From contig NZ_CP017241.1 in the NCBI RefSeq assembly GCF_001908375.1, positions 2,359,001-2,423,000 of the forward strand: a stretch of 64,000 nt of DNA, read 5' to 3'. A model generated the notes under the pieces. The model was given only the letters and a program-made list of their open reading frames with translations, ran no database searches and was not told the origin of the DNA. Source of the stretch: Rhizobium etli 8C-3 (lineage in GTDB: Bacteria > Pseudomonadota > Alphaproteobacteria > Rhizobiales > Rhizobiaceae). The translations under genes were made by a program, and so were the position numbers. Positions 2,213 to 41,907 of the stretch are shown one piece after another. Position 1 is the stretch's first letter; each line of letters starts with the position of its first letter.

Positions 2213-4033
2213 TCACACACACCTCTTAATGATCGATCGGAAAGCGTTGCTTACGTCCGAGCGTCGCCAGATGGCACGCTTGTTCGCGTCATCGAATACT
2301 GGGTTGATGCCAGCATCAAGAAGGTGTTCCCGGAGTTGCGTTTTGGAAACGATATGCCCCTCTAATTGAAGCCTGATCCGAGCCGAAAGGCCGCTCTCGT
2401 AACATGATGCAAACTGTCCGAGTATTGCCCTCGTATACGGTGGCTTCAAGATTTCCATCTTCTTTATATGCGTTATCTGACCTGGCCACAGTCGAAGATA
2501 GACAGGCGCTTCCCTGGCCAGAATTGGTAGCGAATAGGCTTCGTCGAGGGACGCCTCAGCGAGAGCGAGAACACGCTGGAGGGCGTCCAAGTCTCGAATA
2601 TGAATAGTCTCCAAAACAGACCTCCGCGTCTCGCGCGAAACCCAATATTCGATATCGCCGTCAAGCAACGCCCTGACGACATTGGCCCACGGATCGCCGC
2701 CTCGCGTATATAGCGCTGTCACCGCCTGAGGCAGGCGGACAGATTCCGCAGGAGGCAGGCCACCGCATCGCTGTCGTACGATCCGAGCGAGGAACGAAGC
2801 AGCAACTTCGGGAAATGTTAGGAGACCATCCAGCTGGCAAAGCTCGGCAGGGAAGATTCTATTGTCCGTCATGTCGAGCAATGAGGGGACGGCGATACCG
2901 AACGACCTGCAAAAGCCCGTGACGTCGTGATTTGCGCGGAACAGCGCCAGCAGCATCTCTAGCGGAGTGCTTTCACTAGCAACCTCTCGGAAGCGTCTCA
3001 GTGCAAGGTATTCATCGACATTAAGGGTCGTCGGCTTGTAGCCTGCGGTGAAAGCTTGACTACCGATTACCCTGACCCGGGTCCCGCGTTCGATAGCGCG
3101 CATCTTCTCCCGGAGACGGTTCGGGACCCGAACATAGTAGAATAAGTACTTCAAAGGATGGTTTAAGAGGTTCCTTTCGCCGCCTGGATCGTGCGCAACG
3201 AGGTCGGAGAATGTCTCGGGCCAGCCCTCGATGACCTCCGCGGCACTCGCTAATACCGGTGCGGTGACTTCCCAGGTCTGTTTCGTGTCTACCCTGCAGG
3301 CAATCGATCGAGCCACTGCACAAATAAAATCGAACATTGTTCCGTCGTCGATATCCTCGAAATCAGCATGCAAGCTCGTCCTGACCTTCCGGCGTTTTTC
3401 CTCTTTCGTCGGATCGATCAGGCTTGTCGCAAGGTCCAGATGTCTCCAATAGCGCTCGTCGACGAGCTGCTGCGGATATTGGCGAAGGTCAACGGCGATG
3501 AGCTCCCCGTTTTCGGAGATTTTGCAACAGTTGTCACAACACCAAACGTCTCCCATAAACCTCATCCCGAACCTCTTATCGCAGACGGGGCACTTCTCCA
3601 GAAGAAACTCTTTGGTCTCTGGATCGAACTCCAACGCCCGCACCTGCCAAAGCGCACGCAAGTGAGGCGACTTCCGAAGAGCGAGCGGCGACACTCGACG
3701 ATATCGAGTTAGAGCCCCGCATCGGAGCGATGTCTCGAAAAACGGAAGGCATCTCCGACCGGTTGATGGTCGGCTCCACGATAGCGCCTGTAGCTCGCCA
3801 AGCCCTCCCTCGTCCCCAACGAGGGACGCGAGGGCCTCGGCGGTGATGCCTAGCCCGCTGAGTGTACCCGGTGCCATTGGAATGCCTTGGTTCTCGACTC
3901 CAAGTAACTCAAGCGATTTCCGCAGATGAAAGCCATTTTCGCAACCCGCGCGAAGCAAAAACCCTTCAAGCGACTCTCCTGCCCGCGGGCGCGTTGCCCT
4001 TGGGTATCGTCCTTTCGCGATATTAATTGTCAT
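2213..4033 (-). CDS. tniQ: TniQ/TnsD-family target-selection protein
   Basis: TniQ/TnsD proteins bind target DNA and recruit TnsC to it. The product is about 606 residues. A zinc-ribbon with two CxxC-type pairs (CPVCDKR and CCDNC) sits at about residues 148-169, where this family carries its zinc finger. The N-terminus (ESLEGFLLRAGCENGF) is the usual TniQ opening. The long C-terminal part may be the DNA-reading region, as in TnsD, though that is inference. ATG at 4033 is preferred because it overlaps the tnsC stop and has AAGGA upstream; an in-frame start at 4051 is possible. This gene lies closest to the transposon end and reads toward it. Confidence 0.85.
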   Translation of the reverse strand: MTINIAKGRYPRATRPRAGESLEGFLLRAGCENGFHLRKSLELLGVENQGIPMAPGTLSGLGITAEALASLVGDEGGLGELQALSWSRPSTGRRCLPFFETSLRCGALTRYRRVSPLALRKSPHLRALWQVRALEFDPETKEFLLEKCPVCDKRFGMRFMGDVWCCDNCCKISENGELIAVDLRQYPQQLVDERYWRHLDLATSLIDPTKEEKRRKVRTSLHADFEDIDDGTMFDFICAVARSIACRVDTKQTWEVTAPVLASAAEVIEGWPETFSDLVAHDPGGERNLLNHPLKYLFYYVRVPNRLREKMRAIERGTRVRVIGSQAFTAGYKPTTLNVDEYLALRRFREVASESTPLEMLLALFRANHDVTGFCRSFGIAVPSLLDMTDNRIFPAELCQLDGLLTFPEVAASFLARIVRQRCGGLPPAESVRLPQAVTALYTRGGDPWANVVRALLDGDIEYWVSRETRRSVLETIHIRDLDALQRVLALAEASLDEAYSLPILAREAPVYLRLWPGQITHIKKMEILKPPYTRAILGQFASCYESGLSARIRLQLEGHIVSKTQLREHLLDAGINPVFDDANKRAIWRRSDVSNAFRSIIKRCV

Positions 4034-5090
4034 TGGCGACGTCCTTCGCATATTCTTCGGGAGATGGAATGAAGGTCGGCCCCGTTCTGAAGGGGTTGTA
4101 AGAACACAGTTTGATTTCTTGCGAATAGTCCTCTACGGCGGTTGCGAGATGTTCTCGGGTGAGCTGCGCATGGCCACTCTCAGCCATATTTTCCAGCGCA
4201 TTCCGGACGATGATTGCAACAACGCCCAGACGTCCTTTCGAAGCGATGTTCAAACAGAGCGGGACATCCCCTTCGACGAGTATTCTTGGCCTTTCCGGCA
4301 AAATGCGATGCTCCACAATTTTCAAGCTGAGCCGGCCGCAAAAGTCCTCGAAGTCCTTTCGACCTTTTCGGTCGCCATAATGCAAAGGTCTAAAATCTAT
4401 CGGCTTGTGAGAACGGGTAGCTATCTGGTGTTCGAAAACGACTTTCTCGGCATGTTGCGTGCCGACGAAGACTATGGGCCATCGTTTTACCCAGCCCTTG
4501 AAGGTGTTCTGGACTTCGGTCGCGTCGTCTGTTCTCGACACCGGACCGGTGTTGGCGGGCGTCTTCAGGTGCTGGATTTCGTCGATGAAAATGATCTGGT
4601 AACCACGTTCAGAGAGAGCCTTTTCCACACGGTACCGCCTTTGCCTATAGGTTCCGCTGTAAGGTTCCGGATCACCTAGCGCTACCAGGAAATCCGACAT
4701 GAGACTGCTCATCGTCGTGCCGCCTGTCAGCTCCACATGCAGCGCGATGGTCTGCAATTTGGCCAACTCGCGTCTCGGAAGCTTTGCGGTCTTTTCTAGC
4801 CAGGCTTTTTCGTCGGCTGTCTTAGCCGTTAGCGCTTTCGCGGCCAGCCATTCATCGACGAGGAATTTGTCAATGTACCATTCGACGGTGGTTGTTTTTC
4901 CCGACTGCGATCCGGCGAACATCTTGACCGCGGTCTGCCCTGCGTACGGGGCCGCAATCATGCGCTGACGCAACTTCTTGAATACAGCGACAGCAGCCTC
5001 CTGTTGCGGGTGCTTGATCCGCATCTCGCTAAACTCGGCATAAATCTCATCCGGGCTCATCATTCTATGGGGTAGCAAGACTGCCTCCAT
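4023..5090 (-). CDS. tnsC: TnsC/TniB-family AAA+ transposition regulator
   Basis: TnsC-type ATPases connect the TniQ-marked target to the TnsAB transposase. The P-loop GSQSGKTT lies at about residues 60-67 and the Walker B IIFIDEIQHL ends near residue 175, both as in TniB/TnsC. FVGTQHAEKV later in the protein fits sensor 1. At about 355 residues the length suits the TniB type. ATG at 5090 is used; a TTG at 5099 overlaps the tnsB stop as TTGA and could be the coupled start instead. The end overlaps tniQ by 11 bases, which indicates one transcript. Confidence 0.87.
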   Translation of the reverse strand: MEAVLLPHRMMSPDEIYAEFSEMRIKHPQQEAAVAVFKKLRQRMIAAPYAGQTAVKMFAGSQSGKTTTVEWYIDKFLVDEWLAAKALTAKTADEKAWLEKTAKLPRRELAKLQTIALHVELTGGTTMSSLMSDFLVALGDPEPYSGTYRQRRYRVEKALSERGYQIIFIDEIQHLKTPANTGPVSRTDDATEVQNTFKGWVKRWPIVFVGTQHAEKVVFEHQIATRSHKPIDFRPLHYGDRKGRKDFEDFCGRLSLKIVEHRILPERPRILVEGDVPLCLNIASKGRLGVVAIIVRNALENMAESGHAQLTREHLATAVEDYSQEIKLCSYNPFRTGPTFIPSPEEYAKDVANDN

Positions 5091-5095
5091 CTTTC

Positions 5096-7375
5096 TCAAT
5101 CGAGATCGTCAGCGAGCGCATCCAGAAAGCTGTCTGGGCTCTCAATGATGGGCAACATCCACTGACTGGAGCTTTGAAGGTCTGGTATCGAGGGTGGTGG
5201 GACGGCCGGCGGCGCGGCTAGGTTGCGCAGTTTCTTCACCTGTTTGTTTATTTCACGCGTCTCCCGAGCCTTCTGCGCGCCGCGAGGCTGATCTTTGTGA
5301 AGAATTTGTGGGGCCTTCCGAACCATCGCAGGCATTTCCTGCGGGACATCGTAAGAAGCGGTACCCTGAACGGTGGGCTCGATGCTGCCGATCTCAATGT
5401 GGTCGCCTTCAACGAGGTTCCAGATAACAAGCTCGTCTTGGCGAGCTGCTTTTTTGGCCGCCCTTTTTGCTTGACGGATCGCCCTCTCGGCGCGATCCAT
5501 GGCCCGCGCGTTGTCGATGAGTTTGTAATACTCATATTTCGCGAGGATAAGCTCTTCTTCATCAACGAAATGCTTATCCAGTCGGCGATCGCTGGCTTTG
5601 ATCAAGTCAGCCTCTGCGTAACTCAGGCCTTCGGCAAACCTGGGCTTCGAGTTTGGCAATCTGACGAAACGCTTCCTTACGTGGTCGACAATCACGATGT
5701 GCGAACAATCCCATTTGTAGATGATGGCCTCAACCTTGACCTTGCCGCGGCCGGAGCGCCCCTCCTTTGGCACTGTTGCAATCAGAAAATCTTCCGTTAC
5801 GTCCGGATGATGAAAAACGTGGTTCTCATAGACCACGCCGTTCCTGTCGATCCGCAGTCGCGCGCGGGTGCCGCAGATAATGTCCACGAGATCGAGCCGT
5901 TTGGAGACAGACCGACCTACCATAGGATCATTGATCTTCGACCACATTCGAACCGGAACAGCTTCAAGCGTGCGATTGCGACTCAAGTGGTGGACGTTGA
6001 CGATCCAGTGCCACATCACACCCTCGGCAAATCTGAGGGCCCAATCTGCTTTTTCCTCAGGCTTGAGCCGACGCGCCGCGAGCACGTGGGGCTTATAAGG
6101 TATTCCCCCGGGCGCTTTGTGCCAGATGCCTTTGTTGTATGTATTGAATCCGCTCTCGACGATGGCTTTCGCCTGCGGCGTCGCTTTTGGCGCAGCATCC
6201 ATATCGATGCCAGCATCGCCTAAGAGGGCCCGCATTGAAACGCCGATATTCTCAACGCCGTTGTCGAACAGCATTTTTTTCGGTTGCCCGTATCCGTCGG
6301 TCGCCCCTTTCTTGACCCCAAAGCGCTCGATAAGAAAAAGCTTTGGCCGCAGCATTTGCTTGATCGCCAATTGCACGGTGAGCGTGGATGGCTTTTCGAA
6401 AGTCAGAATTGCGGCGAGAAGTATCCGAGAATAGACATCCACTATGGATACAAGATAGGGCCGCTTGCGGTCTTCGACGTTCCCGTCTTCATCATAGATC
6501 GGTATCCATTCATCTATCTGCGTCTGATCGACCTGCACGAGTTGTAGTGGGAATTCAGCGGTCGCACCGCTGGCTCTAGCTCCATACCGCTGCAGCGCCT
6601 TTATAGGGTCGCGACGGGCGAGGCGCTCCCGAGTTTCCTGGTCGCGGATATAGTTTTCGACTGCCGTACGTTTTGGATATTTGAGCCCTTCTTCGCCTCG
6701 TGCGCGCCGAGCCCTGTCCTCTTCGATAGCTTGCCCAAGGAAAAGGAATACCGCCTCCTGTAACTCAGGAGGCTTTGGATTGCCTTCTTGGTAAAAATGC
6801 TCGACAGCCTCGTCTAGCTTTGGCTTTACCCAAGGGTCCTTCCATACCCTTTTGCTGTGAGCTCCTTGCTTGCTGATTAGGTCGGCAAGATCACGTTCGT
6901 GCGGAACACTTCGCTTCAGAGCACGAGCCAATCCCGACGCTGATGGCCTCCGAAAATGGCCGGCTCGGCAAGCCGTGGAGTACGTTTTCTCAATGAACTC
7001 TTCGAGGCCGTCCGTGGACTTCGAAACTTTGCCGTTCTCGTCAAACTTTCGAGCGTAGTACCTGTACATCAGCGCTTCCGCGACCTTTTCCTGGGCGCTC
7101 TCGATCCTTTTCCTTGTCTCGAGTGGTGTGTCCGGAAGAGTCGCGTCCATCAACGCGTGTATATCGATGCGATCAACCCAGTTTGACGACAACTGCTGGA
7201 CAGCAGCGTTTTCCTTGATCCATTTCCCGAACTGGGCCTCCTCGATCCGTTCCGGCATTCCGGTAGATTCATCAAGAAAGATGAGGGACCCGCCTGCGAG
7301 TTTTTTTACAAGGGTGTAGTCCCTTGTACGGTTATCGGTCGTGACGCGATAACAATCGCCTCTAGTGAATCCCAT
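5096..7375 (-). CDS. tnsB: TnsB-family DDE transposase
   Basis: TnsB binds the end repeats and joins the 3' ends to the target. An rve-type core is clear: QLVQVDQTQIDEW (Asp near residue 283), KMLFDNGVEN (Asp near 371) and AKAIVESGFN (Glu near 407), giving the DDE triad with family-like spacing. About 270 residues before the core would hold the DNA-binding domains, and a Mu-transposase-type C-terminal barrel and basic tail follow. The 759-residue length is normal. ATG at 7375 is preferred because GTAGGTG stands upstream; a GTG at 7384 follows the tnsA stop directly. Confidence 0.9.
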   Translation of the reverse strand: MGFTRGDCYRVTTDNRTRDYTLVKKLAGGSLIFLDESTGMPERIEEAQFGKWIKENAAVQQLSSNWVDRIDIHALMDATLPDTPLETRKRIESAQEKVAEALMYRYYARKFDENGKVSKSTDGLEEFIEKTYSTACRAGHFRRPSASGLARALKRSVPHERDLADLISKQGAHSKRVWKDPWVKPKLDEAVEHFYQEGNPKPPELQEAVFLFLGQAIEEDRARRARGEEGLKYPKRTAVENYIRDQETRERLARRDPIKALQRYGARASGATAEFPLQLVQVDQTQIDEWIPIYDEDGNVEDRKRPYLVSIVDVYSRILLAAILTFEKPSTLTVQLAIKQMLRPKLFLIERFGVKKGATDGYGQPKKMLFDNGVENIGVSMRALLGDAGIDMDAAPKATPQAKAIVESGFNTYNKGIWHKAPGGIPYKPHVLAARRLKPEEKADWALRFAEGVMWHWIVNVHHLSRNRTLEAVPVRMWSKINDPMVGRSVSKRLDLVDIICGTRARLRIDRNGVVYENHVFHHPDVTEDFLIATVPKEGRSGRGKVKVEAIIYKWDCSHIVIVDHVRKRFVRLPNSKPRFAEGLSYAEADLIKASDRRLDKHFVDEEELILAKYEYYKLIDNARAMDRAERAIRQAKRAAKKAARQDELVIWNLVEGDHIEIGSIEPTVQGTASYDVPQEMPAMVRKAPQILHKDQPRGAQKARETREINKQVKKLRNLAAPPAVPPPSIPDLQSSSQWMLPIIESPDSFLDALADDLD

Positions 7376-7384
7376 GGCTTGCAC

Positions 7385-12397: not shown

Positions 12398-13042
12398 ATG
12401 AAGCAGCGCCTCCTAGTCACCACTGACGACGCCATGATGCGGCAGGCCGTGCGAACCCGGCTCGCCCTCGCGCATGCAGGTGAGGATGCTGTGATCGTCG
12501 ATGAATTGAAAGTTTCCCGGGGAAGCTGCCGAATGGACGTCGCGGTTATCAATGGCCGCATTGAAGGTTACGAGATCAAGAGCGACAAGGACACCCTGGA
12601 AAGACTTTCGAGACAGGCTGAGATGTTCGGTCTCGTGGCTGATCGTATGACGCTCGTGGTCGGCCACAAACACCTGGAGAAGGCCCGCACGATGGTGCCA
12701 GGCTGGTGGTCTATCATGACCCCCTCATCGGTCGCTTCGGACAAACTGGACCTGGTAATCGCCAGGCGCGGTCGCTTAAACAGAAAGAGGGACAAGAGAG
12801 CGTTGATCGAAGCCCTCGAGCGAGATGAGTTGATTGCGATGCTTGAGGCGCACGGAATCGACAAGGGATACCGTACCGTAAGCTACCATCAATTAGCGGA
12901 CCACGCGGCCGAGCGCCTCTCTCGCGACGAGATCGCCCTTTCCGTAAAGAAGATGCTCAAGGTCAGGGCACGTCTTGGTGCCGCTTTTGGCGACCGGGCC
13001 TTCGGGCGTAACGCGATTATCTGCTCAGAGCCATCTGCGTGA
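12398..13042 (+). CDS. sce7726-family PD-(D/E)XK-like protein
   Basis: ATG at 12398 gives about 214 residues, the usual family length. An in-frame start at 12194 adds a stretch unlike protein. The core reads VIVDELKVSRGSCRMDVAVIN, then IEGYEIKSDKDTLERLSRQ, then VVGHKHLEKA and VPGWWSI. The E...D...E-x-K arrangement (EL, MDVAV, YEIKS) is a restriction-fold nuclease signature. Its last 26 bases overlap the convergent beta-family gene. Genes of the sce7726 type often accompany beta or sce7725-type proteins, so the two probably form one module; the activity is not established. Confidence 0.72.
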   Translation: MKQRLLVTTDDAMMRQAVRTRLALAHAGEDAVIVDELKVSRGSCRMDVAVINGRIEGYEIKSDKDTLERLSRQAEMFGLVADRMTLVVGHKHLEKARTMVPGWWSIMTPSSVASDKLDLVIARRGRLNRKRDKRALIEALERDELIAMLEAHGIDKGYRTVSYHQLADHAAERLSRDEIALSVKKMLKVRARLGAAFGDRAFGRNAIICSEPSA

Positions 13043-14180
13043 TATGCTGATTGGCCCTCACTGAAAGCCAAGCAGTCGGCGTTGTGAACTTCTTGCCGTC
13101 TATGGTCAGGTCTCCCTCCGCGACGCGCTCGATGATCGACGTTCCCCAGCAGTCCGCCCTGCTTGCCCACTGATCGCTCTCCGTCGTGTCCTTGGCGGCG
13201 GCAACGTATTTTGTCTGGTCGCTATTATTTTCATAAAGACAGATATGCCAGGCATTCGAGGCGACGAGATCGACATGGGGAAACCATCCGTTCGCCGCGA
13301 CGATGCTCGACGTGCGCGGCGGTATCGACATGTAGTCGCCATACCCGACGCTAAACGTCTTCGAAATCTCGCGATGAAGTCCCAGTTCTTCGATTTCCAG
13401 TCTGCGTGGCATGTCCTTCAACGAGGTTTTTGGGAAGCTGTTCGAGAGCAGCACGGTCTCGAGCCGATCGACATCGTCGCCTAGTCCCTCGTACAGGCGT
13501 GACAGGAAATCTGTCGAGGCTGCGGAGGCTGCGCGGAAGCGACCTCTGATGTCTTCAACGTCGACGATGACAAGAAGCGAACCCGCGCTTTCTCTGATGT
13601 AACGGACGGCCTGGAAGAACGCAGCCACCTGACCGGCGTCGCCTGGCTTGATACGAAATGCGCCGCGTGTGCCTTTCCGTTTGACTATTTCTAACTGGCT
13701 CGAAATCTGTTCCGAACTCGTCGCCCTGAGCACGGGAATGAGTTGTGGCAAGTCTGAAATCATATCGACCCACCTGACAGCGCCATGAGTGGGGTCTGTC
13801 AATTCTATTATATGCCGATTGAACGCTTCTGTCTTTTTCCGATTTTTCTCGTCATTGGCCAATTCCTTTTCCGACCGGGGCCGGCCCGCTTTCTGTCCTG
13901 CGGCTGCCCTCGTGATTTCCCTTCGACGTCGGCGCTCAGTTGCTTCTTCAACCGAAGTGGTTGGTTTCGGCTCTGGATCAAAATCCACGATCGCAGGACG
14001 GCTGCCCAGGTCTTCAAGTAAGACGGTGGCAGTCTCCAAAAGTGTCTCGCCTTTCGCGTATCGCGTTAGCGTGACGATCGGGACCATCGCGTCTTTCACA
14101 TCGTCTGGGCATTTTGAGTAGGCGAATTCTTCGTGGACCCTGGTGCTCATCGCAGGGAAATATGGTCGTCCGTCGAACAT
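13017..14180 (-). CDS. Beta-family protein (phage T4 beta-like)
   Basis: The product has 387 residues. It opens with GRPYFPAMSTRVHEEFAYSK, then VPIVTLTRY, the start typical of beta-family proteins related to a phage T4 product. Strand motifs LLVIVDVEDIRG and VLLSNSFP in the middle, and the C-terminal VDLVASNAWHICLYENN region, also fit that family. Residues 75-115 are very basic and may be a linker. Its end overlaps the convergent sce7726-type gene. The biochemical role of the family is unknown to me; the pairing suggests a shared conflict function. Confidence 0.6.
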   Translation of the reverse strand: MFDGRPYFPAMSTRVHEEFAYSKCPDDVKDAMVPIVTLTRYAKGETLLETATVLLEDLGSRPAIVDFDPEPKPTTSVEEATERRRRREITRAAAGQKAGRPRSEKELANDEKNRKKTEAFNRHIIELTDPTHGAVRWVDMISDLPQLIPVLRATSSEQISSQLEIVKRKGTRGAFRIKPGDAGQVAAFFQAVRYIRESAGSLLVIVDVEDIRGRFRAASAASTDFLSRLYEGLGDDVDRLETVLLSNSFPKTSLKDMPRRLEIEELGLHREISKTFSVGYGDYMSIPPRTSSIVAANGWFPHVDLVASNAWHICLYENNSDQTKYVAAAKDTTESDQWASRADCWGTSIIERVAEGDLTIDGKKFTTPTAWLSVRANQHITQMALSR

Positions 14181-16399: not shown

Positions 16400-17158
16400 T
16401 TACCTGTTCAACTGCTGTCGAAACGATTGGATCATGCCTGGAGAAACATCGCCCGCGAAACAGACCGGTGCATACCCGCCTCCGCGACTATAGGCGCTCC
16501 GCTTGCCGCACCGTCGCCCACCACGGTCGGTGTTGTACGGGCAGGCGCAAGACCCAGGATACATGGAGATTGATTCGGCAATGATCCTTTGGATCACCAT
16601 GGAATCGGAAATCTGAGGCACCGCTGGTATGACGGGGTCGGCACCCGCCCGCGTATCTGCATCATTTGACGCCCTTTGTTCACGCTGGTCAGGCTGCGGT
16701 GTACTCGGCCGCTCGTCGGAAAGCAACGCGGTCGAAATCCACCCTTCCCGCCTCGTCAGCCCATCGCGGACCTTCGACCAGTCGCCAGCGGTTTCCGTCA
16801 CCACCAGCTCTCTGCCGCTGTCATATCTGTCAAGTATGCCGTACGCCTTTCCGGGTCCGCTGCGCAAGGCGACCCTCCGGCCCGTTACGAAGCGTGTAAC
16901 GGCCGCAGCCGCGTGCGGCAGCCCCGGCGGCGCGACAGCCGTGACCGAAGGCGTGGGGGCGCTCGTCTCAGCGGTCTCCTCCGCAATAGTCTGCCTATTG
17001 TCAATGACGCCTTGGTTCGCCGCGGGAAGACGTTGCGGCTCGATGGAAGGGGCTTCAGATTTGTGAAAGAATGAGGCGATCAGCCCAATGCCGAGGATTA
17101 GGAAAACGACCGCCGGAGTTAGTTTGGTTTGCTTTCGCGAACGACGCTTACGCCGCAT
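16400..17158 (-). CDS. Anchored SH3-domain protein, last gene of the envelope operon
   Basis: The 252-residue product starts with a basic stretch (RRKRRSRKQTK) and one membrane helix at about 14-31, so the rest lies in the periplasm. A proline- and alanine-rich linker leads to a bacterial SH3 domain at about 88-147 (RRVALRSGPGKAYGILD to REGWISTALL). The C-terminus has a cysteine-bearing motif, CACPYNTDRGGRRCGKRSAY, ending in APVCF, which I have seen at the end of other secreted rhizobial proteins. Bacterial SH3 domains commonly bind peptidoglycan. It follows the OmpA-like gene by 20 bases. Confidence 0.68.
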   Translation of the reverse strand: MRRKRRSRKQTKLTPAVVFLILGIGLIASFFHKSEAPSIEPQRLPAANQGVIDNRQTIAEETAETSAPTPSVTAVAPPGLPHAAAAVTRFVTGRRVALRSGPGKAYGILDRYDSGRELVVTETAGDWSKVRDGLTRREGWISTALLSDERPSTPQPDQREQRASNDADTRAGADPVIPAVPQISDSMVIQRIIAESISMYPGSCACPYNTDRGGRRCGKRSAYSRGGGYAPVCFAGDVSPGMIQSFRQQLNR

Positions 17159-17178
17159 CTCCCGGTCCGATCACAGCG

Positions 17179-18198
17179 TTATTGCACCGCCGCCTCGCGC
17201 CGTCGGATTCTGATTTCGATGCGCCTGCGGGTTTCGACGTTGCCTGCTTGGCCAGCGGTGAGCGTGTCGCCAGGCAGGATAAGCTGCGCGGCCGACAGAG
17301 GCAGGACGGTGATCCCGGACAGCGACTTGTTCGCCCTAAGGATATTGGCGACCGAGATCGCACGGGCGAGCCCAAGCCCGGCATTGTCCGCCGGCTCGAG
17401 GGTCGTAATCGCTTTCCTGGACGACAGAACATCGATGGAATTCTTGTCGAGGTTGGAATTCAGCCGCGAGAGCGGCTGCTCATCTGTGTGGCCAATCACT
17501 TCGACGATGTCGGCACCGTAGCTCTCGAGGTTTTTCGCAATCTGGTCGGAAATCGATCCATTCAGCTGGTCTGTGAATGAGGTGGACAGCTCGGCGCTGC
17601 CGGAGCGGAAGAAATAGCCATTGGCTTCGGCCAGGCTAATGATCGGCGGCCACTCGTGCGGTTTTCCAGACGCGGTGAGCTTCGCAAGCTCCGCCTCTTG
17701 GGATTCCAACTCCTTGAGGGCGACTGTCAACCGGGACGCCAGATCGCGCTGCTGTTCGTTGAGTAGGTCGTTGTCCTTTTGTAAATCCGCCGCCCGCTGC
17801 TCTGCGGCTATGAGAGCCTCAACACGCTTGAGGATATCGGCGGCATCCTTCTGACCGAGGACCTCCTTGATGCGTTGATAAGTGTCCTTCTGCAGGACGA
17901 GTTCGCGCCAGTCTTCGTCGTACGCAGCTTGCTCCACCTCCGGCAATTTGCTGGCGAGGGCCGCGACTTCGGCCTTGAGTTCCTCAATCTGCTGATCCTG
18001 CTGATTGCTTGTTTCGGTGACAACTGACAGTTGCTTGATCGCGTCCTCGGCCCGCTGGCGTTCCTTCACGATGATCGCCGCGGTCACCAACAGTAGGCAG
18101 AAAACGACTAGAAGCAGGGATTCCGCCATCGTAAAACCGAGGATGAGCCCGCGATTGTAGCCCTTGGTCTCAATCTGGCCGGCGTTCTCCGGCGTCAT
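17179..18198 (-). CDS. MotB/ZorB-like protein with OmpA peptidoglycan-binding domain
   Basis: The product has 339 residues. One membrane helix lies at about 18-43 (LILGFTMAESLLLVVFCLLL). It carries a glutamate near residue 26, where MotB and ZorB proteins have the ion-coupling aspartate. A coiled coil spans about 50-175. The OmpA-like domain at about 185-335 has ANGYFFRSGSAEL, VEVIGHTDEQ and the closing NVETRRRIEIRIRR. The ATG at 18198 overlaps the stop of the MotA-like gene (ATGA). Together the pair has the make-up of an ion-driven stator anchored to the cell wall. Confidence 0.75.
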   Translation of the reverse strand: MTPENAGQIETKGYNRGLILGFTMAESLLLVVFCLLLVTAAIIVKERQRAEDAIKQLSVVTETSNQQDQQIEELKAEVAALASKLPEVEQAAYDEDWRELVLQKDTYQRIKEVLGQKDAADILKRVEALIAAEQRAADLQKDNDLLNEQQRDLASRLTVALKELESQEAELAKLTASGKPHEWPPIISLAEANGYFFRSGSAELSTSFTDQLNGSISDQIAKNLESYGADIVEVIGHTDEQPLSRLNSNLDKNSIDVLSSRKAITTLEPADNAGLGLARAISVANILRANKSLSGITVLPLSAAQLILPGDTLTAGQAGNVETRRRIEIRIRRREAAVQ

Positions 18199-19544
18199 CG
18201 CTGCCACCACGACTTGCGAGGCTTGTCATCCTCGGCCTCGGAAACCTGAGCGATGCCAGCATTGTCCACGACGGTGTCGTTGGCAGCCGAAGGCAACTCT
18301 CCGGAAGGGACATGAACCGACAATTGAGACAAGGTGCGTTCGATCCGCTCGCCACGGAGGCGGCTCTGTTCTTCGGCTGCCCTCGCCTCGCTATGACGTC
18401 CCGTCGATGCCTCTACGAATTCCGAAAGCTTTGCGGTGCTTGCCGCATGGGCATCGTTGGCGGCCTTGGATGCCGAAACGACTTCCTCTACAACGGATGT
18501 CAACTTGGCGACGTTCTCGGCCGACTTCGTCTGCGCAGCGGTGGCGGTGGTCACTTCGGCGGCAAGCTTTGTCAAATTTGATGCGGTCTCATTGAACGGG
18601 GCAATGCCCGCCAGAATCTTCTTGGCTGTCTCACGAGTGTCTGCCGCATTGTCGCTGATAGCCTTAGCGTGGGCATCCGCTACGGACTTCAAGGACTCCA
18701 CGGCGGGCGACACGTCAATCCTCAAGACTTCATCCGGAGAACGGGCCGCGGCGTACTTCTGGATGACATTGTCGACTGCCTCAGAAAGCTGCTTCGACTT
18801 GTTGGTCATCATGGTCGCCAAGTCCTCCATTTGGCCGGACAGCCGAATAACGTTCCTGGCGTTCGTTTCCGAAAGATGGGCCACATTCTTGTGGCTCTCC
18901 GCTAAGGTGGTCAGCAGTTGCTTTGAGGTTGTCTGAATGGATTCCACCGCCTTCGCGGACATTGCCTCGATAGCTGCCCGCACCGCTTCGCCGTTCCTTT
19001 CAGCCTGGCGAGCGATTTCCTCGAAACCTTCGGATAGCATCTGGTTGCTGGTCCGGCGGTAGGACGAGAATTCCATTGCCGAGTTGTCGAGCTCGGCCCT
19101 CACCCGCCTGGTCATCTCGGCGAGCTCGTGCCTGACCGCCTTTTCGATATCGGCAGGATCGCGGCGCATCTGATTGAAGAAGATACGAAGCGCGATCCCA
19201 GTCACCGTGGAGATGATCGCGATACCGAAGTTGCGAACGACGTCCTCGATTGAGGCTTCGCCCGTGAACTTATACAGCGAGACGCCCAGGCTCGTCAGCG
19301 TGTAGATGAAGCCCATGTAATAGAGGTTGTCGCCGGCCTGCTCGCTGTGGACACGCAGGCCAGCAAGCATGTTCACTGTCATGTACAGGAACATCATCGC
19401 GACCGGGATTGCGGTGATGAGCGCAATGTCGAAACCCCAGACTTTACCCAACCAGATGACGGCGGAACCGATCATGGTCAAGAGGACGAAGAGTACGATC
19501 GGTCCTTGGTTGCGGACCAGGCTTCTCATCGATGAGGTACTCAT
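18195..19544 (-). CDS. MotA/TolQ/ZorA-like membrane protein with long coiled-coil tail
   Basis: The product has 449 residues. Four membrane helices lie at about 14-33, 39-62, 74-91 and 104-124. The third and fourth carry small and hydroxyl residues at the expected places (GFIYTLTSLGVSL and GIAIISTVTGIAL), as in MotA/TolQ/ExbB proton-channel subunits. The remaining 320 residues form a long helical tail with heptad-like spacing, a feature of ZorA. The gene starts at a TAATG junction with the VWA-like gene and ends at an ATGA junction with the OmpA-like gene. The family call is by topology and motifs; no close homologue is claimed. Confidence 0.65.
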   Translation of the reverse strand: MSTSSMRSLVRNQGPIVLFVLLTMIGSAVIWLGKVWGFDIALITAIPVAMMFLYMTVNMLAGLRVHSEQAGDNLYYMGFIYTLTSLGVSLYKFTGEASIEDVVRNFGIAIISTVTGIALRIFFNQMRRDPADIEKAVRHELAEMTRRVRAELDNSAMEFSSYRRTSNQMLSEGFEEIARQAERNGEAVRAAIEAMSAKAVESIQTTSKQLLTTLAESHKNVAHLSETNARNVIRLSGQMEDLATMMTNKSKQLSEAVDNVIQKYAAARSPDEVLRIDVSPAVESLKSVADAHAKAISDNAADTRETAKKILAGIAPFNETASNLTKLAAEVTTATAAQTKSAENVAKLTSVVEEVVSASKAANDAHAASTAKLSEFVEASTGRHSEARAAEEQSRLRGERIERTLSQLSVHVPSGELPSAANDTVVDNAGIAQVSEAEDDKPRKSWWQR

Positions 19545-20365
19545 TACATTGTTCCTGTCAAACGCTCGATCCCCGAGAAGTTGCCGTGGTTGGAGCCGAT
19601 CCACGTCGCCCAGAATTCCGGCAGATTCCTCAAGGCAGCGGAGCTTTCCCTCTGGAAGAACAGCAGCTTGACATCCACACCATCCAACGGGGTTCTGAAT
19701 TTGTTTCGGGCAACGCTGCGTTCAAATGCCTTGATGTCCGCGCCGGATTTGTACATCGAAAAAGCTGGCGTGAACTCAATCATGTCGGAGGCGATAATCA
19801 GCCGCTTTGGCTTTCCATCGAGCTTCGCATCGGTGAAGCTTTCGATCACGATACGCTGGATGCCAGCCATGATGGGCGACTGCTTCGATGAGGTGCCATC
19901 GCCCATCTGGTCCTCGATCCTTTTAAGAGGTTGGTTGAAAGCCTTGTCCCAACGCTGCTGAATTTTCTTAGGATTTGATGTCCACGGGTCTGCGCTCTCG
20001 CCGTCACCTGGATTACATCCATGAAACGTGCGCTCGGGTTTGCCCTCGACGTCGGTGAGGAGGTAGACCTCGATCAGGCCATGCTGCTCGACGTCGGACA
20101 CGATACGCTGAAACTCTCGTTTGAGGTCGAGCTTGGTTATCTCGGAGATCGGGTCGGTGACATCGAGCAATACTGCCGTCGCCGACGTGGCACCGCTTTC
20201 CGGGCAAAGGTCTGCATCGAGCGTCGGTGCGGCCTTCGCCTTGTACCAGAGCATCGAGTAGCCGCCGACCGCGCCGGCAATGGCGATGGCGAGGGCGATG
20301 ATGCCGATGATGGGGCCGACGGAGCTGCCTCCCCGGCGGCTTCTGCGCTTACGCCGGGCTGCCAT
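19544..20365 (-). CDS. Membrane-anchored VWA-like protein
   Basis: ATG at 20365 has CGGAGA upstream and gives 273 residues. A basic N-terminus and one helix at about 16-40 anchor it with the main part outside the cytoplasm. The soluble part resembles a von Willebrand A fold: TAVLLDVTDPI near residue 66 stands at the DxSxS metal site, there degenerate as DVTDP. Later come a threonine-serine loop and RLIIASDMIEF, the usual third strand. I infer a protein-binding module in the periplasm. It overlaps the upstream gene by 17 bases. Confidence 0.62.
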   Translation of the reverse strand: MAARRKRRSRRGGSSVGPIIGIIALAIAIAGAVGGYSMLWYKAKAAPTLDADLCPESGATSATAVLLDVTDPISEITKLDLKREFQRIVSDVEQHGLIEVYLLTDVEGKPERTFHGCNPGDGESADPWTSNPKKIQQRWDKAFNQPLKRIEDQMGDGTSSKQSPIMAGIQRIVIESFTDAKLDGKPKRLIIASDMIEFTPAFSMYKSGADIKAFERSVARNKFRTPLDGVDVKLLFFQRESSAALRNLPEFWATWIGSNHGNFSGIERLTGTM

Positions 20366-21797
20366 TGATCGTCTCCGGATAGATGTGGTCGAGTTCGTGA
20401 TAAGCGGTGACTGCGTCTTCAAATGCTTTGCTGATGCGCTTCATCTGGGCGGACAAGTCGGCTTGGGCGGTCTGGATGCGTTCACTAAGGTCTTTGTCGC
20501 TCCAATCATCGGACGTGTCGATGATGACCTTGCGGCGCTCCATCTTGTACTGCGCCTTGAAATGCTTGGGTTCCTCTTCCGTGCGTGCTGCCCGGTTCTC
20601 CTCACGATAGATCGCCAGAAGCTTCCGCCCTACGCTCTCCAGCTGTGTCTGGTGTTCGCCGAACAGCTTCGTCATGCGTGTCCGCGCGTCGATGATGGCC
20701 GCGCATTCCTTGCGTCGCTTCGACAGCCCCTGGATGATCCCGTCGATCTTTTCGTTGTGGTCGTCGCGGATGTCCTTGAGCCCCTCGACGCGATGCTCCC
20801 TTTCGGCCGCGTAATCATCGCGGGCGTTGACGTAACGCTGATAAGTCCCAGCATAGCCCGGATATGGATCGGTCATGAACAAGCCGTCGAGGAGCGCGGC
20901 GATCGAGAACAACAAGCCACCCGCGAACAGCACGAAAGAATCGATATCCGCGAGGCCAAGCGGGTCAGACACCAACCGCTGTCGAACGAGCGGGCCGATG
21001 TTGTCAACGGCGGTCGCGGAGATTTCACGGTAATGCGCCATCGCAAGGTTCAGTGCGATCGCAAGAGCGATCCACAGAAGCAAGCTGATAAAGCCTATGA
21101 TCTTCAGTGTGAACGAACGCCGGTTGAGCTGGCGAATCCCGAAAAGCGCCAATAGGAACGTGCCGATGACGTTTACGAACGCGAAGCCAAAAGCATATCC
21201 GATACCGCCAACAAGACCACTGTCGTTACCCTTGGCGAGATAGATGCCGTTCACCGCCGTCTCGACGATCAGAAGCAGGGCAACGAATAGAACCTTGAGC
21301 CAGGTCTCAAGCGATCCCCGGACCCGAGCAATCCGCTTTTCCAACCCGTTCCGCTTCCTGAAGTCCTCAAGCTCCTCGTCGGTAGCCTTGAGGTCCTTCC
21401 GGCGAATGAACAGTTCGTCTCGGCCTTTGGTGACGTCAGCTTGAAAATCCTCGACACTCGAGTGGTTAGTCATCTCGATCTGGCTGAAGTGGCCGTCAAA
21501 ATCGAGGTTCCGCAGCCTGGTGGCATACGTGTTGAGCTGGTCTTCGAGAATCTGGAAAGCGGCGTCGCGCTGGCTTTCGACGCGGTCCACGATTGCGCGC
21601 TCGACCTCATCAAGCTCACGGGCATTGCGCGCCGGGATGTTGGCCTTGCCGTTCTCGGCGGCCTTCCGCTCGATCTCCATCGATTTGCCAAGCTTTTCCG
21701 GGTCCAGCGGTGGAAACGGGTCCGTCGTAATGCGGAAGTCGTGACTAGACTCCCGGAGGCTGTCGTACAATCTGGTGAGTGACTCAAACTTGGCCAT
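20349..21797 (-). CDS. Coiled-coil membrane protein of the envelope operon
   Basis: The product has about 482 residues. Residues 1-165 are mostly charged helix. Hydrophobic segments follow at about 167-190 (VLFVALLLIVETAVNGIYL), 200-222, 232-256 and 284-303. A second charged helical region (DDYAAEREHRVEGLKDIRDD) runs to about 440. The cytoplasmic face would thus carry two long coiled coils. I recognise no family. The gene starts 36 bases after the nuclease gene and overlaps the VWA-like gene, so it belongs to the same transcript. ATG at 21812 is an alternative start. Confidence 0.62.
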   Translation of the reverse strand: MAKFESLTRLYDSLRESSHDFRITTDPFPPLDPEKLGKSMEIERKAAENGKANIPARNARELDEVERAIVDRVESQRDAAFQILEDQLNTYATRLRNLDFDGHFSQIEMTNHSSVEDFQADVTKGRDELFIRRKDLKATDEELEDFRKRNGLEKRIARVRGSLETWLKVLFVALLLIVETAVNGIYLAKGNDSGLVGGIGYAFGFAFVNVIGTFLLALFGIRQLNRRSFTLKIIGFISLLLWIALAIALNLAMAHYREISATAVDNIGPLVRQRLVSDPLGLADIDSFVLFAGGLLFSIAALLDGLFMTDPYPGYAGTYQRYVNARDDYAAEREHRVEGLKDIRDDHNEKIDGIIQGLSKRRKECAAIIDARTRMTKLFGEHQTQLESVGRKLLAIYREENRAARTEEEPKHFKAQYKMERRKVIIDTSDDWSDKDLSERIQTAQADLSAQMKRISKAFEDAVTAYHELDHIYPETINGSPA

Positions 21798-21833
21798 CGT
21801 CAAAACCTGCATGCATGCTTATAGGTGATGTCA

Positions 21834-22499
21834 TCATTTGCCCCACTGGGGCGGCCGCCATCCGGCTGCGATGGCCTCGCCTTCGGTGCAGAACCATCGC
21901 TCGCCCTTGCGGGTGTCGATCTTTGTCTTCGCGTAGTCCTTCGACCACGGCGCGTGGTAGATTTTCTCTTGTTTGCTGTTGATGTTCCCCTTTATGGGGC
22001 AACTGCCCGCAGGCGCGACCGAGAGTGCATTATCCCATTTGTGGGATCGGAAATCCCACGGCGTCTGCGTGTCAGCCTGCCAGACGCCGACGTGGCCAGC
22101 ATGGGCAATCTCTTCCTCTTTGACATAGTCGACGGAATACTTCCGAAAGGCCCACGCCAAACCGGAGGCAATCATTTCACCATTGATATCGACGCCGTCG
22201 GCGAGACAGCTCGCAACCCATCGGCCGTACATGTCTTTCTCGTGATGCGTGCACGTGACATTGTGGCCGAGGACAAGACTTTCCATCTTACGGACCGCCG
22301 CCTGGCCGCAAGACCATTCGCCACCGTCCGCCGACCTGCAAACCTGCCCCGCTTCGGGTGCGTCTATGCCATGAAGACGGTAACGAACGCCGTCCAGGTC
22401 GATCGTATCACCGTCAATTACGCGCACATTTGAAGCCGCAGAAACGCCCTCCACTGTCAGAAACAGCAGGAATGCGATCGCCAAAATTCTGGAAAACAA
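21834..22499 (-). CDS. Exported staphylococcal-nuclease-like (SNase) enzyme
   Basis: The preferred start is TTG at 22499 with AGAGGGA upstream, because it begins directly at a signal peptide (LFSRILAIAFLLFL to VSA). The reading frame is open up to 22613. The SNase domain has VRVIDGDTI, YRLHGIDAPEAGQ and MYGRWVASC, so the catalytic Arg, Asp, Glu and Arg are all present. The C-terminal 60 residues (CPIKGNINSKQEKIYHAPW to WFCTEGEAIAAGWR) form a KGNI-type module often fused to such nucleases. It should cut DNA or RNA in the periplasm. It is the first gene of a six-gene operon. Confidence 0.78.
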   Translation of the reverse strand: MFSRILAIAFLLFLTVEGVSAASNVRVIDGDTIDLDGVRYRLHGIDAPEAGQVCRSADGGEWSCGQAAVRKMESLVLGHNVTCTHHEKDMYGRWVASCLADGVDINGEMIASGLAWAFRKYSVDYVKEEEIAHAGHVGVWQADTQTPWDFRSHKWDNALSVAPAGSCPIKGNINSKQEKIYHAPWSKDYAKTKIDTRKGERWFCTEGEAIAAGWRPPQWGK

Positions 22500-22959: not shown

Positions 22960-24999
22960 ATGCCGGTAACCTTCATCCCCACCATCGGGCGGCGCGAGAA
23001 CGATGCCGTCGCGAACAACTTGGTTCGTGCAGTCCGTGCGGGAGAAGTATTTGGCCAAGCCGAGAAGATCGTTCTCTACGCGGGATGGCCACAGGTCAAA
23101 GATTACGACGGCCGCACTCATAGCTCCGATCTGACCGTGGTGGGAGAAGCGCATGGTATCAAGCTAGTCAAAATTTCGTTATCCTCCGATAAGGCGGACG
23201 TCAAACGGGATGCAATCAGCATTCTCCAAGCGGCAGCCACGACCGAATCCCTCATGGGCAAAAGCCTACAGCTGAAGAAGAAGCGCAGGCTGATTTTTGA
23301 TGTCGTTCCGATCATCTACGCTCCGAACATTGATCCGAAACAATATGACAATGAAGAAGTTGAGTTCGCCGGCAGCGAAGGCGAACTCTTTCGCCTGCTC
23401 AAGGAAGAGAGCGGTGTACTCGATGGCACCCAGATTGCCGAGGTTCAAGCTATTATTGAAGGCGCAAAGGCGCTTGGGCAGATAGTGGATGCCGAGGAAG
23501 ACGAGGAAGTGCATCCCATCGCCAGAGCATATCGCGACCTCGAAGCGGTGATTTACAATTTCGATGCAACACAGAGATCGGTTGCATTGACCGCTATTCA
23601 AGGACCCCAGCGCATTCGGGGTTTGGCCGGCACGGGTAAAACTGTCATCCTTGCGATGAAGGCAGCGCTTGCGCACATTGAAAATCCAAACGCCAAGATT
23701 CTAATTACATACTACACTCGGAGCCTCCGAGACATCATTGAACGGCTGATCACCCGGTTTCATCGGCATTTTGCCGAGGTCGATCCGAATTGGGATAATG
23801 TCCATGTTCGGCATGGCTGGGGACGGCAAAATCTGCCTGGCGTCTATCGCGATACATGTATCCGCGAAGGTGTGTCGCCGAAGTCGTACAATGAGGTTAG
23901 CAATGTCAGTGATCCGTTTGGAACTGTGTGCCGTGACTTGGTCGATAGAGGCGTCGTCGCGCCTTACTACGATGTTATTTTGGTAGATGAAGGTCAGGAC
24001 TTTCCTGACGGCTTTTATCAAATGTGCTTCTATCTGGCAAAAGGCGAGCGTGACCGGAAGCAGATTATATGGGCATATGATGAGCTGCAAAACGTCTTCG
24101 ACGTGAAGGTTCGCGAGCCCGAACAGTTGTTCGGGAAAGATACGGACGGGCAACCGCGCATCTCCCTGACGCGCAGCCTGCCAGGGGGAACGGAGACCAA
24201 TGACTTCGTTCTTCAGCGCTTTTATCGAAATCAACGTGACGTGTTGATCCTCGCGCATGCGGTAGGTTTCGGCATCTACGGTGAAATTGTCCAGATGCTT
24301 GAAAATGCCAAGCATTGGGAGGACGTGGGCTATGACGTAGTGTCAGGAACGTTCACTTCTGGAAGCGAAAACGTTGTAGAGCGTCCGCTCGTGAACAGTC
24401 CCAGTGTCCTGGAAACGCCTGCTGACGTCCCGCTTATTCGAGGGCAGGCAGCCAATTCCTTTGACGAAGAAGTTGAAGCCGCCGTGGCAGAAGTGCGCTC
24501 GTTCATTGAGAAGGGCATTCATCCACATCAAATCCTGGTGGTGAGCTTGGATGATCGCACGGCCAGGAGCTACTTCACGAAGATTGCCGACCGACTTCTA
24601 GCCTTCGGAATACCTTGCAACAACATCATCATTGATAAATACAGCGAACCGCCGTTCCGGATCGACGGCAGAGTAACATTAAGCACGGTCTACCGTGCCA
24701 AGGGAAATGAGGCCGCGGTTGTGATCGTCGTTGGTGCCGACGCGGCATCGTTGAAGGCGAGAACCGGTCGCAATAAGCTGTTTGTTGCCTTTACCCGTAC
24801 AAAGGGATGGTTGCGTGTTTTCGGTATGGCCACCAAAACCTTCTCGCAGTTGGCGGTCGAGATAAACGCGGCCGTGGCCAATAGCCCGCGACTTCGCTTC
24901 ACAATGCCAAACATGAGCCAGCTGAATACGATCCAGCGTGGTTTGGAAGAGAAGCATGCCCGTCTGGTTGAGGCCAAACGTCGAATGGAGCGTTTGAAG
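22960..24999 (+). pseudogene. SF1 (UvrD-like) helicase, 3' end cut off by IS66
   Basis: The protein carries a P-loop, RGLAGTGKTVIL, at about residues 220-231, Walker B ILVDEGQDF at about 340-348, and late helicase motifs VTLSTVYRAKGNEA and KLFVAFTRTKG. The first 200 residues may include a degenerate nuclease-like region (SDLTVVGEAHGIKLVKIS). After AAG at 24999 the IS66 left end begins. The present frame runs 12 more codons and stops at 25038. The lost 17 codons (NELNLSDEDMASLIEDE) lie at 28159-28212, so the intact protein had 697 residues. As only the tail is replaced, the product may still fold. Confidence 0.8.
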
Positions 25000-25080
25000 G
25001 TGAGCGCGACGAACAGCCCACCTTTTCTTTGTTGGTAGAGCCCGCGAGATAAGCTCCTTCATCGATAGGAGCGGAATGGA

Positions 25081-32319: not shown

Positions 32320-34008
32320 TCAAAGCAGATCGAGTTCCCAATTCTCAGCAAAAATCTTGAGCAAGCTTTCCTGGCGCTGCTTCAGCGACTTTGGTGTCCA
32401 AGTCGCTTGCGCAATAACCTGGCTCGTTAACGCGTAGGAGGAAACGTTCTTCGGCCCCGTAAAATACACGTGGCACTTCTTGCCGAATTCGTAGTTCTGC
32501 GCGGCCGAGTTCTTCTTTTTGTTAAGAGGCACGAGGTTGGCGATGCGATGCACCCATTTCTCCCTCTCGTCCTCGTCGGGCCACCACGCAGTCCATTCAC
32601 TATCGTCTTCCACGTTCTGCGGTAGGACATGCTCGATCGTCAAAACTTTTGGATCGTACGTCGCCGCACCGTCCGAAATGAAGGAATCCAGGCGTAGGAT
32701 CAGGTAATTCCTGCGACGCGGCTTGAGCTTGTAGATGTCGCCGTTGAGCGCCTCCCTGAACTTCTTCGACCATTTCCGATCGAACTGGAGCGCATCGCAT
32801 TGATCGGGTTCCATTCCCTTCTCGACGTCTTCGATGAGGGATGCGTACAGGGTTGTTCGATCGTTGACGTTATAGCGATCTACATGCATGTACGCCGCGA
32901 CACGCTCGAGGAGTTGGAAGAATCGAGCTACGCGCGCCGGCTTGTTCCTGTTGTTCTTCAGGAACAGCATCGCTGGTGGTATCCAATCCGAATTATCGAT
33001 GCGCTGCAGCCAGCGAATGTACGAATTTATGATTTCGGCGTGAGAAGTGGCGGCAACGGAAGCGTTGCGGATATCGGCAAGTGCGTCCGCAAACGGCTCG
33101 AGCACGTCATCGATGAATGCGCCGGGGTCTGGATTTTTGGGAAGCACATGCTGTCTGAATTCCTCCAGAACCGAGCGTTTTGCCTTCTCCTTCGCGTATA
33201 TCATTCGAACGAAGCTAAAGAGATCGTTGAAGCCGCTTCTTGATAGCTCGACCTCCATGTCCTCCCATTTTTGGTTATACTTCGTTCGCGTTTTTTCGTC
33301 CTTCATCTGACCAATGATATCGGCCTTGATGATATCGGTGGGCTGCAAATCCAAGCCTCGGCTGTTCATCACCGAGAACACCCGGAATGCGGATTCCTGC
33401 GTCGGCGTTGATACGGCTACGAGATAGCAGCGCGTCACCATAAAGCTTACGAAATCCTGCAATGCGTCGGGGGTAGAGAACCGCTTTTCGAGCTCCGACC
33501 GGAAACATTCGGCATTTTCGCGGATGTTGCGCTGCGCCTCGTTGTCGAGCGCTACCGGGTCCAATTCGATGAGGGCATCTATCGCAAACTTCTGCACATA
33601 CTTTTCGAAGAACGACCTATCGCGCTCTCTCAGGGCAAGTCGCGGCTTCGACGGTATTTTCTCGATCTTTTTCCCGGGTTCGACGATGTAGGATTCGATC
33701 TCGTCCCGGAGTTCGCCATCATGGGCATCGGCGATGGCACCAAGCAAAATTGTCAGGGTGGTCAGGCGCTGTTGACCGTCGATCACCTCGGCTCGAGCCT
33801 CTCCCTCTGACTTGATGAGCACGATGCTGCCGAGGAAATAGCCCTCCTCGTCTTCCTCTTCATGGAAGGCTACGAGGTCATCCAGGAGTTCCGATGCTTG
33901 ATCCACCGACCAAGCATAGGGTCTTTGATAGGACGGGATGAAGAACTCGAACTCGGAACTGAAGATTTTTGCCAGCGAATACTCGGCTCCGGTGATTTTC
34001 TTAGTCAC
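32320..34008 (-). CDS. DUF262-DUF1524 protein (GmrSD-like restriction enzyme)
   Basis: This single chain of 562 residues joins the two GmrSD halves. The N-terminal DUF262 part has FIPSYQRPYAWS, YFLGSIVLI and EVIDGQQRLTTLTIL, the ParB-like nucleotide-binding motifs. The C-terminal DUF1524 part has LTIEHVLPQNVED and RIANLVPLNKKKN, an HNH-type nuclease centre. GmrSD enzymes cut DNA with modified, often glucosylated, cytosines, as in T-even phages. GTG at 34008 has AGGAGA upstream. It is expected to act alone as a type IV restriction system; its substrate is not known. Confidence 0.8.
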   Translation of the reverse strand: MTKKITGAEYSLAKIFSSEFEFFIPSYQRPYAWSVDQASELLDDLVAFHEEEDEEGYFLGSIVLIKSEGEARAEVIDGQQRLTTLTILLGAIADAHDGELRDEIESYIVEPGKKIEKIPSKPRLALRERDRSFFEKYVQKFAIDALIELDPVALDNEAQRNIRENAECFRSELEKRFSTPDALQDFVSFMVTRCYLVAVSTPTQESAFRVFSVMNSRGLDLQPTDIIKADIIGQMKDEKTRTKYNQKWEDMEVELSRSGFNDLFSFVRMIYAKEKAKRSVLEEFRQHVLPKNPDPGAFIDDVLEPFADALADIRNASVAATSHAEIINSYIRWLQRIDNSDWIPPAMLFLKNNRNKPARVARFFQLLERVAAYMHVDRYNVNDRTTLYASLIEDVEKGMEPDQCDALQFDRKWSKKFREALNGDIYKLKPRRRNYLILRLDSFISDGAATYDPKVLTIEHVLPQNVEDDSEWTAWWPDEDEREKWVHRIANLVPLNKKKNSAAQNYEFGKKCHVYFTGPKNVSSYALTSQVIAQATWTPKSLKQRQESLLKIFAENWELDLL

Positions 34009-41898: not shown

Positions 41899-41907
41899 AA
41901 TCTCCCC

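Follow-up and report, generated by a model that had tools for sequence, protein, structure and literature searches.

Type II Zorya (PMC11890865) combines an A subunit in which a MotA-type core of about 100 residues is followed by a C-terminal extension with ZorB, a protein with one transmembrane (TM) helix and a peptidoglycan-binding domain. In Zorya, nucleases are recruited in the cytoplasm, which puts host DNA at risk. SNIPE is a single cytoplasm-facing protein with DUF4041 and GIY-YIG domains; it shows that phage DNA can be cut, as it is injected, by a nuclease placed at the membrane, and its authors count Zorya and Kiwa among the systems that act at entry (PMC13190303). Here, an operon is described from a stretch of 64,000 nucleotides of Rhizobium etli 8C-3 (assembly GCF_001908375.1, contig NZ_CP017241.1, positions 2,359,001-2,423,000, forward strand), the whole of which is referred to as the window. 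Four of its genes form a conserved core, encoding a four-helix membrane protein (MTM), a VWA protein, a MotA/ZorA-like protein and a ZorB-like OmpA protein, and in many relatives this core is accompanied by, or fused to, a DNA nuclease. On balance, the best reading is that of a Zorya II-like motor that would hold a periplasmic nuclease against entering DNA. No matching description was found in Pfam, NCBIfam release 20.0, PADLOC 2023 or the literature searched (outside which lay subscription papers and most preprints), in line with a preliminary description, made from the sequence of the window, which had proposed the system as undescribed.

Like type II Zorya, the system has a MotA-type TM core with a C-terminal tail, the arrangement by which ZorA is recognised, and a B subunit with a TM helix and an OmpA-type domain. 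It differs from Zorya in the helix of the B subunit, where Glu is present in 98 of 98 loci in place of the chemically similar Asp that is essential in ZorB, in having MTM and the VWA protein as further core components, and in a nuclease that is predicted to be periplasmic where Zorya type II has cytoplasmic ZorE. As the preliminary description had noted, a cytoplasmic Zorya effector is missing: no ZorC, ZorD or ZorE match occurred among the 20 window proteins scanned with PADLOC. With this, the helix Glu and scores below cut-off, assignment to a known Zorya subtype was rejected. Judged from sequence, the motor is Zorya-like and yet lies outside Zorya: the helix Asp and a cytoplasmic effector are lacking, two core proteins are added and the nuclease is predicted to be across the membrane. 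A beta-sheet in the cytoplasmic domain of the A subunit has been given as specific to Zorya (PMC12505986), and Zorya type II structures also have a short core (PMC11890865). The model of the MotA-like protein is all-helical, with its tail modelled at low confidence.

With SNIPE the system would share a membrane-held nuclease meeting entering phage DNA. It differs in being a multi-protein motor with a predicted periplasmic SNase or HNH nuclease, whereas SNIPE is one protein facing the cytoplasm, and the SNIPE domains (DUF4041, GIY-YIG) were found in none of the six proteins at E-values up to 1. In Sinorhizobium fredii, plasmid pSfreNXT3b carries the system with a SNIPE-type gene (DUF4041 with T5orf172/MUG113; locus L004, 13989-15464) next to its SNase gene. 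The fold of the A subunit is common to the 5:2 motors Tol-Pal, Ton and MotAB, as seen among the VIA matches. B subunits of the TolR/ExbD type are short and are not known to carry an OmpA domain; the B subunit here, in contrast, is about 340 amino acids (aa) long and has an OmpA-type domain. To our knowledge, a VWA protein, MTM and a nuclease are not parts of any of these motors.

The four-gene core

The six open reading frames (ORFs) at 16400-22499 on the reverse strand (Table 1) were confirmed as real and tightly coupled. The VWA and MotA-like genes overlap at TAATG and the MotA-like and OmpA genes at ATGA, the overlap of the MTM and VWA genes is 17 bases, and the outermost genes are set off by gaps of about 20 bases. 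One copy of the operon is present in this genome. Domain, fold and profile evidence agreed with the protein types given in the preliminary description. Its proposal that the six genes act as one unit held for the core, which was complete in 85 of 87 longer loci (exceptions L035 and L104), in the same order and on one strand. It did not hold for the nuclease, which is frequent rather than universal, or for the SH3 gene, which occurs at this place only in the window and L001, so the six genes are kept together only in part. As one unit they were rejected; the true unit is the four-gene core, and the SH3 protein is accessory. The SH3 profile matched six other loci, but in other proteins or positions. 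The C-terminus of the window's SH3 protein is Cys-rich (CACPYNTDRGGRRCGKRSAYSR), which we take to resemble a motif of secreted nucleases.

The ZorA/ZorB-like nature of the motor pair was borne out, with a match to the MotA/TolQ fold. Among the VIA matches listed for the MotA-like protein, 23 of 50 were ZorA, TolQ, ExbB or flagellar stator entries, the rest being designed or otherwise unrelated, mostly helical proteins. Sequence matches fell largely on the tail: PADLOC ZorA1 was matched weakly (E 5.7e-6) over residues 103-328, and a profile of the MotA alignment run against PDB sequences gave mostly coiled-coil matches, with ZorA (8qyd) at E 0.0063 over the tail. Two hydrophobic segments were counted in 19 of 25 aligned MotA-like sequences, three in five and one in one. 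The OmpA protein has one such segment in 25 of 25 and matches PADLOC ZorB1 weakly (E 3e-5). Its OmpA-type domain is weak in the window (E 6.5e-4); the PF00691 cut-off is exceeded in L160 and L159, while L148 and the protein of the window score below it. In a Paracoccus homologue, the OmpA part matched ZorB2 at E 1.9e-19, with 70.7 bits against a cut-off of 400 bits. By homology, this protein would anchor to peptidoglycan with the orientation of known B subunits, assemble with the MotA-like protein at 5:2 and pass ions along the helix Glu.

The two remaining core proteins add families for which neither Pfam nor NCBIfam has a model. MTM has soluble, probably helical parts of about 170 aa on both sides of its four TM helices, with both termini predicted inside; four hydrophobic segments were counted in 29 of 33 sequences and three in the other four. 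It has no Pfam match at E up to 1 and no NCBIfam match, and its best PDB profile match is at E 0.011. The VWA protein of the window matched no Pfam family at E up to 1 in the domain scan; its AlphaFold model (predicted local distance difference test, pLDDT, 86) matches VWA and integrin I domains with Foldseek and VIA. Invariant in 25 sequences are C54, C117, D68, D71, S193 and D194, and the two cysteines would fit a periplasmic disulfide. One hydrophobic segment was found in 25 of 25, with a mean of 5.9 Lys plus Arg before it and 2.0 after, a bias that favours an inside N-terminus and a periplasmic VWA domain. MTM-VWA pairs with no recognisable motor were seen in eight distant loci fetched at length (L144-L147, L156, L157, L161 and L162), which suggests a reduced or ancestral form.

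The core is sporadic in Alphaproteobacteria. In overlapping samples, MTM was matched in 21 of 297 genomes at the level of the order, in 13 of 337 for the class and in 12 of 398 for the phylum; the sole match outside the class is weak (E 4.3e-4). Strong MotA-like matches (E below 1e-90) were found in nine of 249 genomes of the order, all nine positive for MTM; the other 42 MotA-positive genomes gave a best E of 9e-11 and aligned only from profile position 143 on, that is, in the tail. In the family of one fusion carrier, three of 248 genomes matched the single-protein query. The loci on genome contigs (80 kept of 104) are all alphaproteobacterial by title except L104, titled as a metagenome-assembled genome of Micrococcales and possibly misbinned. 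Plasmids carry the system as well, in 24 of 72,556 records, of which 11 are predicted to be conjugative. Judged by record titles, many carriers are soil- or plant-associated.

Nuclease fusions and association

The strongest new evidence is the set of fusions inside the core operon. L160 (588 aa) and L148 (488 aa) each encode a single protein with a ZorB-like helix, an OmpA domain and a C-terminal SNase, and in L159 (601 aa) an OmpA domain is followed by a C-terminal GmrSD_C/HNH domain (E 2.3e-11). All three genes lie directly behind those for MTM, VWA and MotA, and it is for these three only that the operon context is known. A database search with L160 gave 97 matches, with Pfam labels of PF00565 in 24 (query included) and PF07510 in 27; L148 gave 1256, with PF00565 in 25 of the 120 listed. 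A strict motif search of the fusion matches recovered 26 SNase and seven HNH motifs, below the counts of Pfam labels, and for SNase the shortfall is accounted for by the alignment, in which 47 of 49 SNase-labelled fusion proteins keep all six catalytic residues. The HNH profile found only L159 among the loci searched with it. The nuclease head is thus exchangeable (SNase or GmrSD_C/HNH). Being C-terminal to the wall-binding domain, it should share the periplasmic location of that domain, provided that the B subunit has the orientation of ZorB, opposite to the cytoplasmic effectors of Zorya and as the preliminary description had supposed for the nuclease of the window. Such natural fusions make the hypothesis testable with single proteins.

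Of the 48 loci that remained when those with 90% MTM identity were collapsed, 29 have a nuclease, either as a separate gene or as a fusion (43 of 98 before this step). The nuclease lies upstream on the same strand in 12, downstream on the opposite strand in seven, downstream on the same strand in four and upstream on the opposite strand in three, and is fused as SNase in two and as HNH in one. The 48-locus set and the tree built from it left out nine rows with short flanks, loci without VWA or MotA matches (including the eight MTM-VWA loci above and L155), L042 (the same record as L003), the short loci L009-L034 and L115-L132 (most refetched at length) and the later additions L184 and L185. 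Of the 26 separate nuclease ORFs, 23 are no more than 500 bases from the core, a number that includes two with uncertain starts whose drawn ORFs overlap it; the other three are 1.2 to 2.8 kb off. As background, 41 related genomes gave 104 SNase matches (mean 2.5), and 16 control regions (280 kb) on the same contigs gave none. If a nuclease were expected by chance at 1% of loci, a generous rate, 29 in 48 would have a binomial probability of about 1e-45; as the loci are related, this shows only that a chance association is excluded. On the tree there are at least 17 changes of arrangement over all states and at least 10 among nuclease-bearing rows, approximate counts from a quick method with three long branches.

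The active site of the SNase was intact, as proposed earlier: D29, D31, R41, D46, E49 and R93 are invariant in 17 of 17 sequences. These residues are presumably the equivalents of D19, D21, R35, D40, E43 and R87. One hydrophobic segment was counted in 11 of these sequences and none in six at the cut-off used, several starts being uncertain. The kinds of SNase differ, with a sunset domain in the window and Excalibur in the Mesorhizobium loci L083 and L090. L184, outside the 48, has an SNase-like ORF behind the core on the opposite strand (profile E 2e-7; no Pfam match at 0.001).

Proposed function and alternatives

In the favoured reading, a MotA/ZorA-like ring and a ZorB-like axle with an acidic residue and a wall anchor would form an ion-driven motor in the inner membrane. 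MTM would be a four-helix membrane scaffold with cytoplasmic helical parts and the VWA protein a periplasmic adaptor, and a DNA nuclease would be carried or recruited on the periplasmic side, beside the peptidoglycan-binding domain. The complex might respond to a local disturbance of the envelope, such as phage DNA injection or conjugative entry, by positioning or activating the nuclease, and entering DNA could then be cut before or during its passage of the inner membrane. Activation by ion flow, detection of a breach and phage as the target are conjectural parts of this scheme. By analogy with SNIPE, entering DNA may be intercepted locally, with safety given by compartment. If so, with the nuclease held by a motor beyond the inner membrane, compartment alone would suffice to tell self from non-self. 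A more tentative proposal, plausible though somewhat short of probable, is that the system is a new class of immunity against DNA entry, in which a wall-anchored periplasmic nuclease with a swappable head (SNase or HNH) is driven by a Zorya-like ion motor, the VWA protein serving as sensor or adaptor, and self DNA, being across the membrane, is spared.

Several findings weigh against this reading. No SNase or HNH match was found in 19 of the 48 deduplicated loci, and two of the 29 nucleases are weak cases, that of L151 being a piece of 78 aa and that of L143 scoring low. One Rhizobium tropici/rhizogenes-type clade contributes 28 core loci that lack a nuclease and share a conserved neighbourhood, in which several gene families recur in 25-28 of the 28. 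On Paracoccus yeei pYEE1 the core is flanked by efflux and sugar-transport genes, and no SNase or HNH match was found there either. Thus the core might function without a nuclease, or with one supplied in trans. A neighbour scan of a few nuclease-free cores found AbiEii next to L008 and assigned no family to the ORFs at L136, L141 and L047; another partner at such cores is possible. In addition, the MotA fold match ties with unrelated helical bundles, with no Foldseek match at E 0.001, and the OmpA helix has 2.1 Lys plus Arg before it and 3.8 after, which does not favour an inside N-terminus, so the orientation of this protein rests on homology to ZorB/MotB. Activity, complex formation and a defence role are predictions from sequence. 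Enrichment in defence genes beside the core was small, in a sample too small to decide: the ORFs adjoining 16 core loci (114 of 122 used), with 33 families (among the matches listed, Cas10, Cas2, type II methyltransferase, HNH, AbiEii and the generic mad3 and mad8), were compared with 118 of 208 ORFs of 16 random regions on the same contigs, with four (CARF6, PbeA, mad3 and mad8). ORFs were chosen by length, with no gene finder, and the control regions were what remained of 20 drawn after two were dropped for overlap with a core locus and two for genomes with MTM and VWA only.

The nuclease-free loci, the conserved neighbourhood in Rhizobium and the transport genes in Paracoccus yeei would suit a housekeeping machine of the Tol-Pal type, whose motor and VWA protein would serve envelope maintenance or remodelling, with an optional nuclease to clear DNA trapped in the periplasm. 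Such a role is unlikely given the patchy presence (21/297 in the order, 3/248 in the family), the carriage on plasmids, the fusions and the 10 or more changes of nuclease arrangement. That plasmid carriage, with nearly half of the plasmid records predicted conjugative, and one copy beside a VgrG gene would agree with a device for antagonism or plasmid exclusion, its nuclease aimed at DNA exchanged with neighbours, for instance by conjugation, or exported as a weapon. This is less probable again, because a nuclease joined to a wall-binding domain should stay with the cell; no immunity gene was recognised either, though none was searched for. Least probable is a device for DNA uptake or scavenging, whose motor would work on extracellular DNA in the periplasm while the nuclease degrades one strand or digests the DNA as food. 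Nucleases fused to a wall-binding protein and the many soil- or plant-associated carriers are compatible with it, but no competence gene was named in the annotated neighbourhoods examined (no targeted search was made), and patchiness and a Zorya-type motor would fit defence better. Were the system not one of defence, it would still represent a machine of the envelope that is ion-driven, bears a nuclease head and is so far undescribed.

Genomic neighbourhood

The defence-type genes that the preliminary description had reported nearby are present in the window (Table 1), where the operon is flanked by genes for a Beta family protein and a helicase.

Table 1. The operon and selected neighbouring genes, in coordinates of the window
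Feature	Position	Strand	Details
Exported SNase (thermonuclease) with C-terminal sunset domain	21834..22499	-	Start TTG 22499; PF00565 E 1e-12; sunset E 3e-12; hydrophobic N-terminus
MTM, core gene 1, 487 aa	20349..21812	-	Four TM helices; 58 homologues; without known family
VWA protein, core gene 2	19544..20365	-	TM anchor at the N-terminus; VWA domain predicted to be periplasmic; likely start ATG 20365
MotA/TolQ/ZorA-like protein, core gene 3	18195..19544	-	Four predicted helices, then long helical C-terminal tail; likely start ATG 19544; ORF open from 19604
ZorB-like OmpA protein, core gene 4	17179..18198	-	Single TM helix bearing the Glu of a GxTxAE motif, then a helical stretch and an OmpA-type domain; likely start ATG 18198; ORF from GTG 18210
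Anchored SH3 protein, accessory	16400..17158	-	SH3_3 E 2.6e-8
TniB-type ATPase and TnsB-type transposase	4023-7384		E 6.4e-5 and 5e-14; Tn7-like element, ends unmapped
Beta protein family gene	13017-14180		Pfam E 2.4e-32; flanks operon
UvrD-type helicase	22960-25038		PADLOC Helicase E 2e-121; other flank of operon
Orf5/HEC-06	32320-34008		Strong PADLOC match; SspE-like N-terminus
Type I restriction-modification HsdR, HsdS, HsdM	38875-45590

Carriage as phage cargo was rejected, with zero matches in 50,697 phage records; L163 is the only IMG/VR contig found to carry a core gene, and at 23019 bases it is exactly as long as the contig of L142. A further protein cluster is found next to the core in 15 loci, most of them of Mesorhizobium (for example L083 6452-7651, L036 6373-8049, L039 6413-8080 and L041 17242-18969). 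Its members in L158 and L036 carry DUF4236, which in L036 is joined to SH3.

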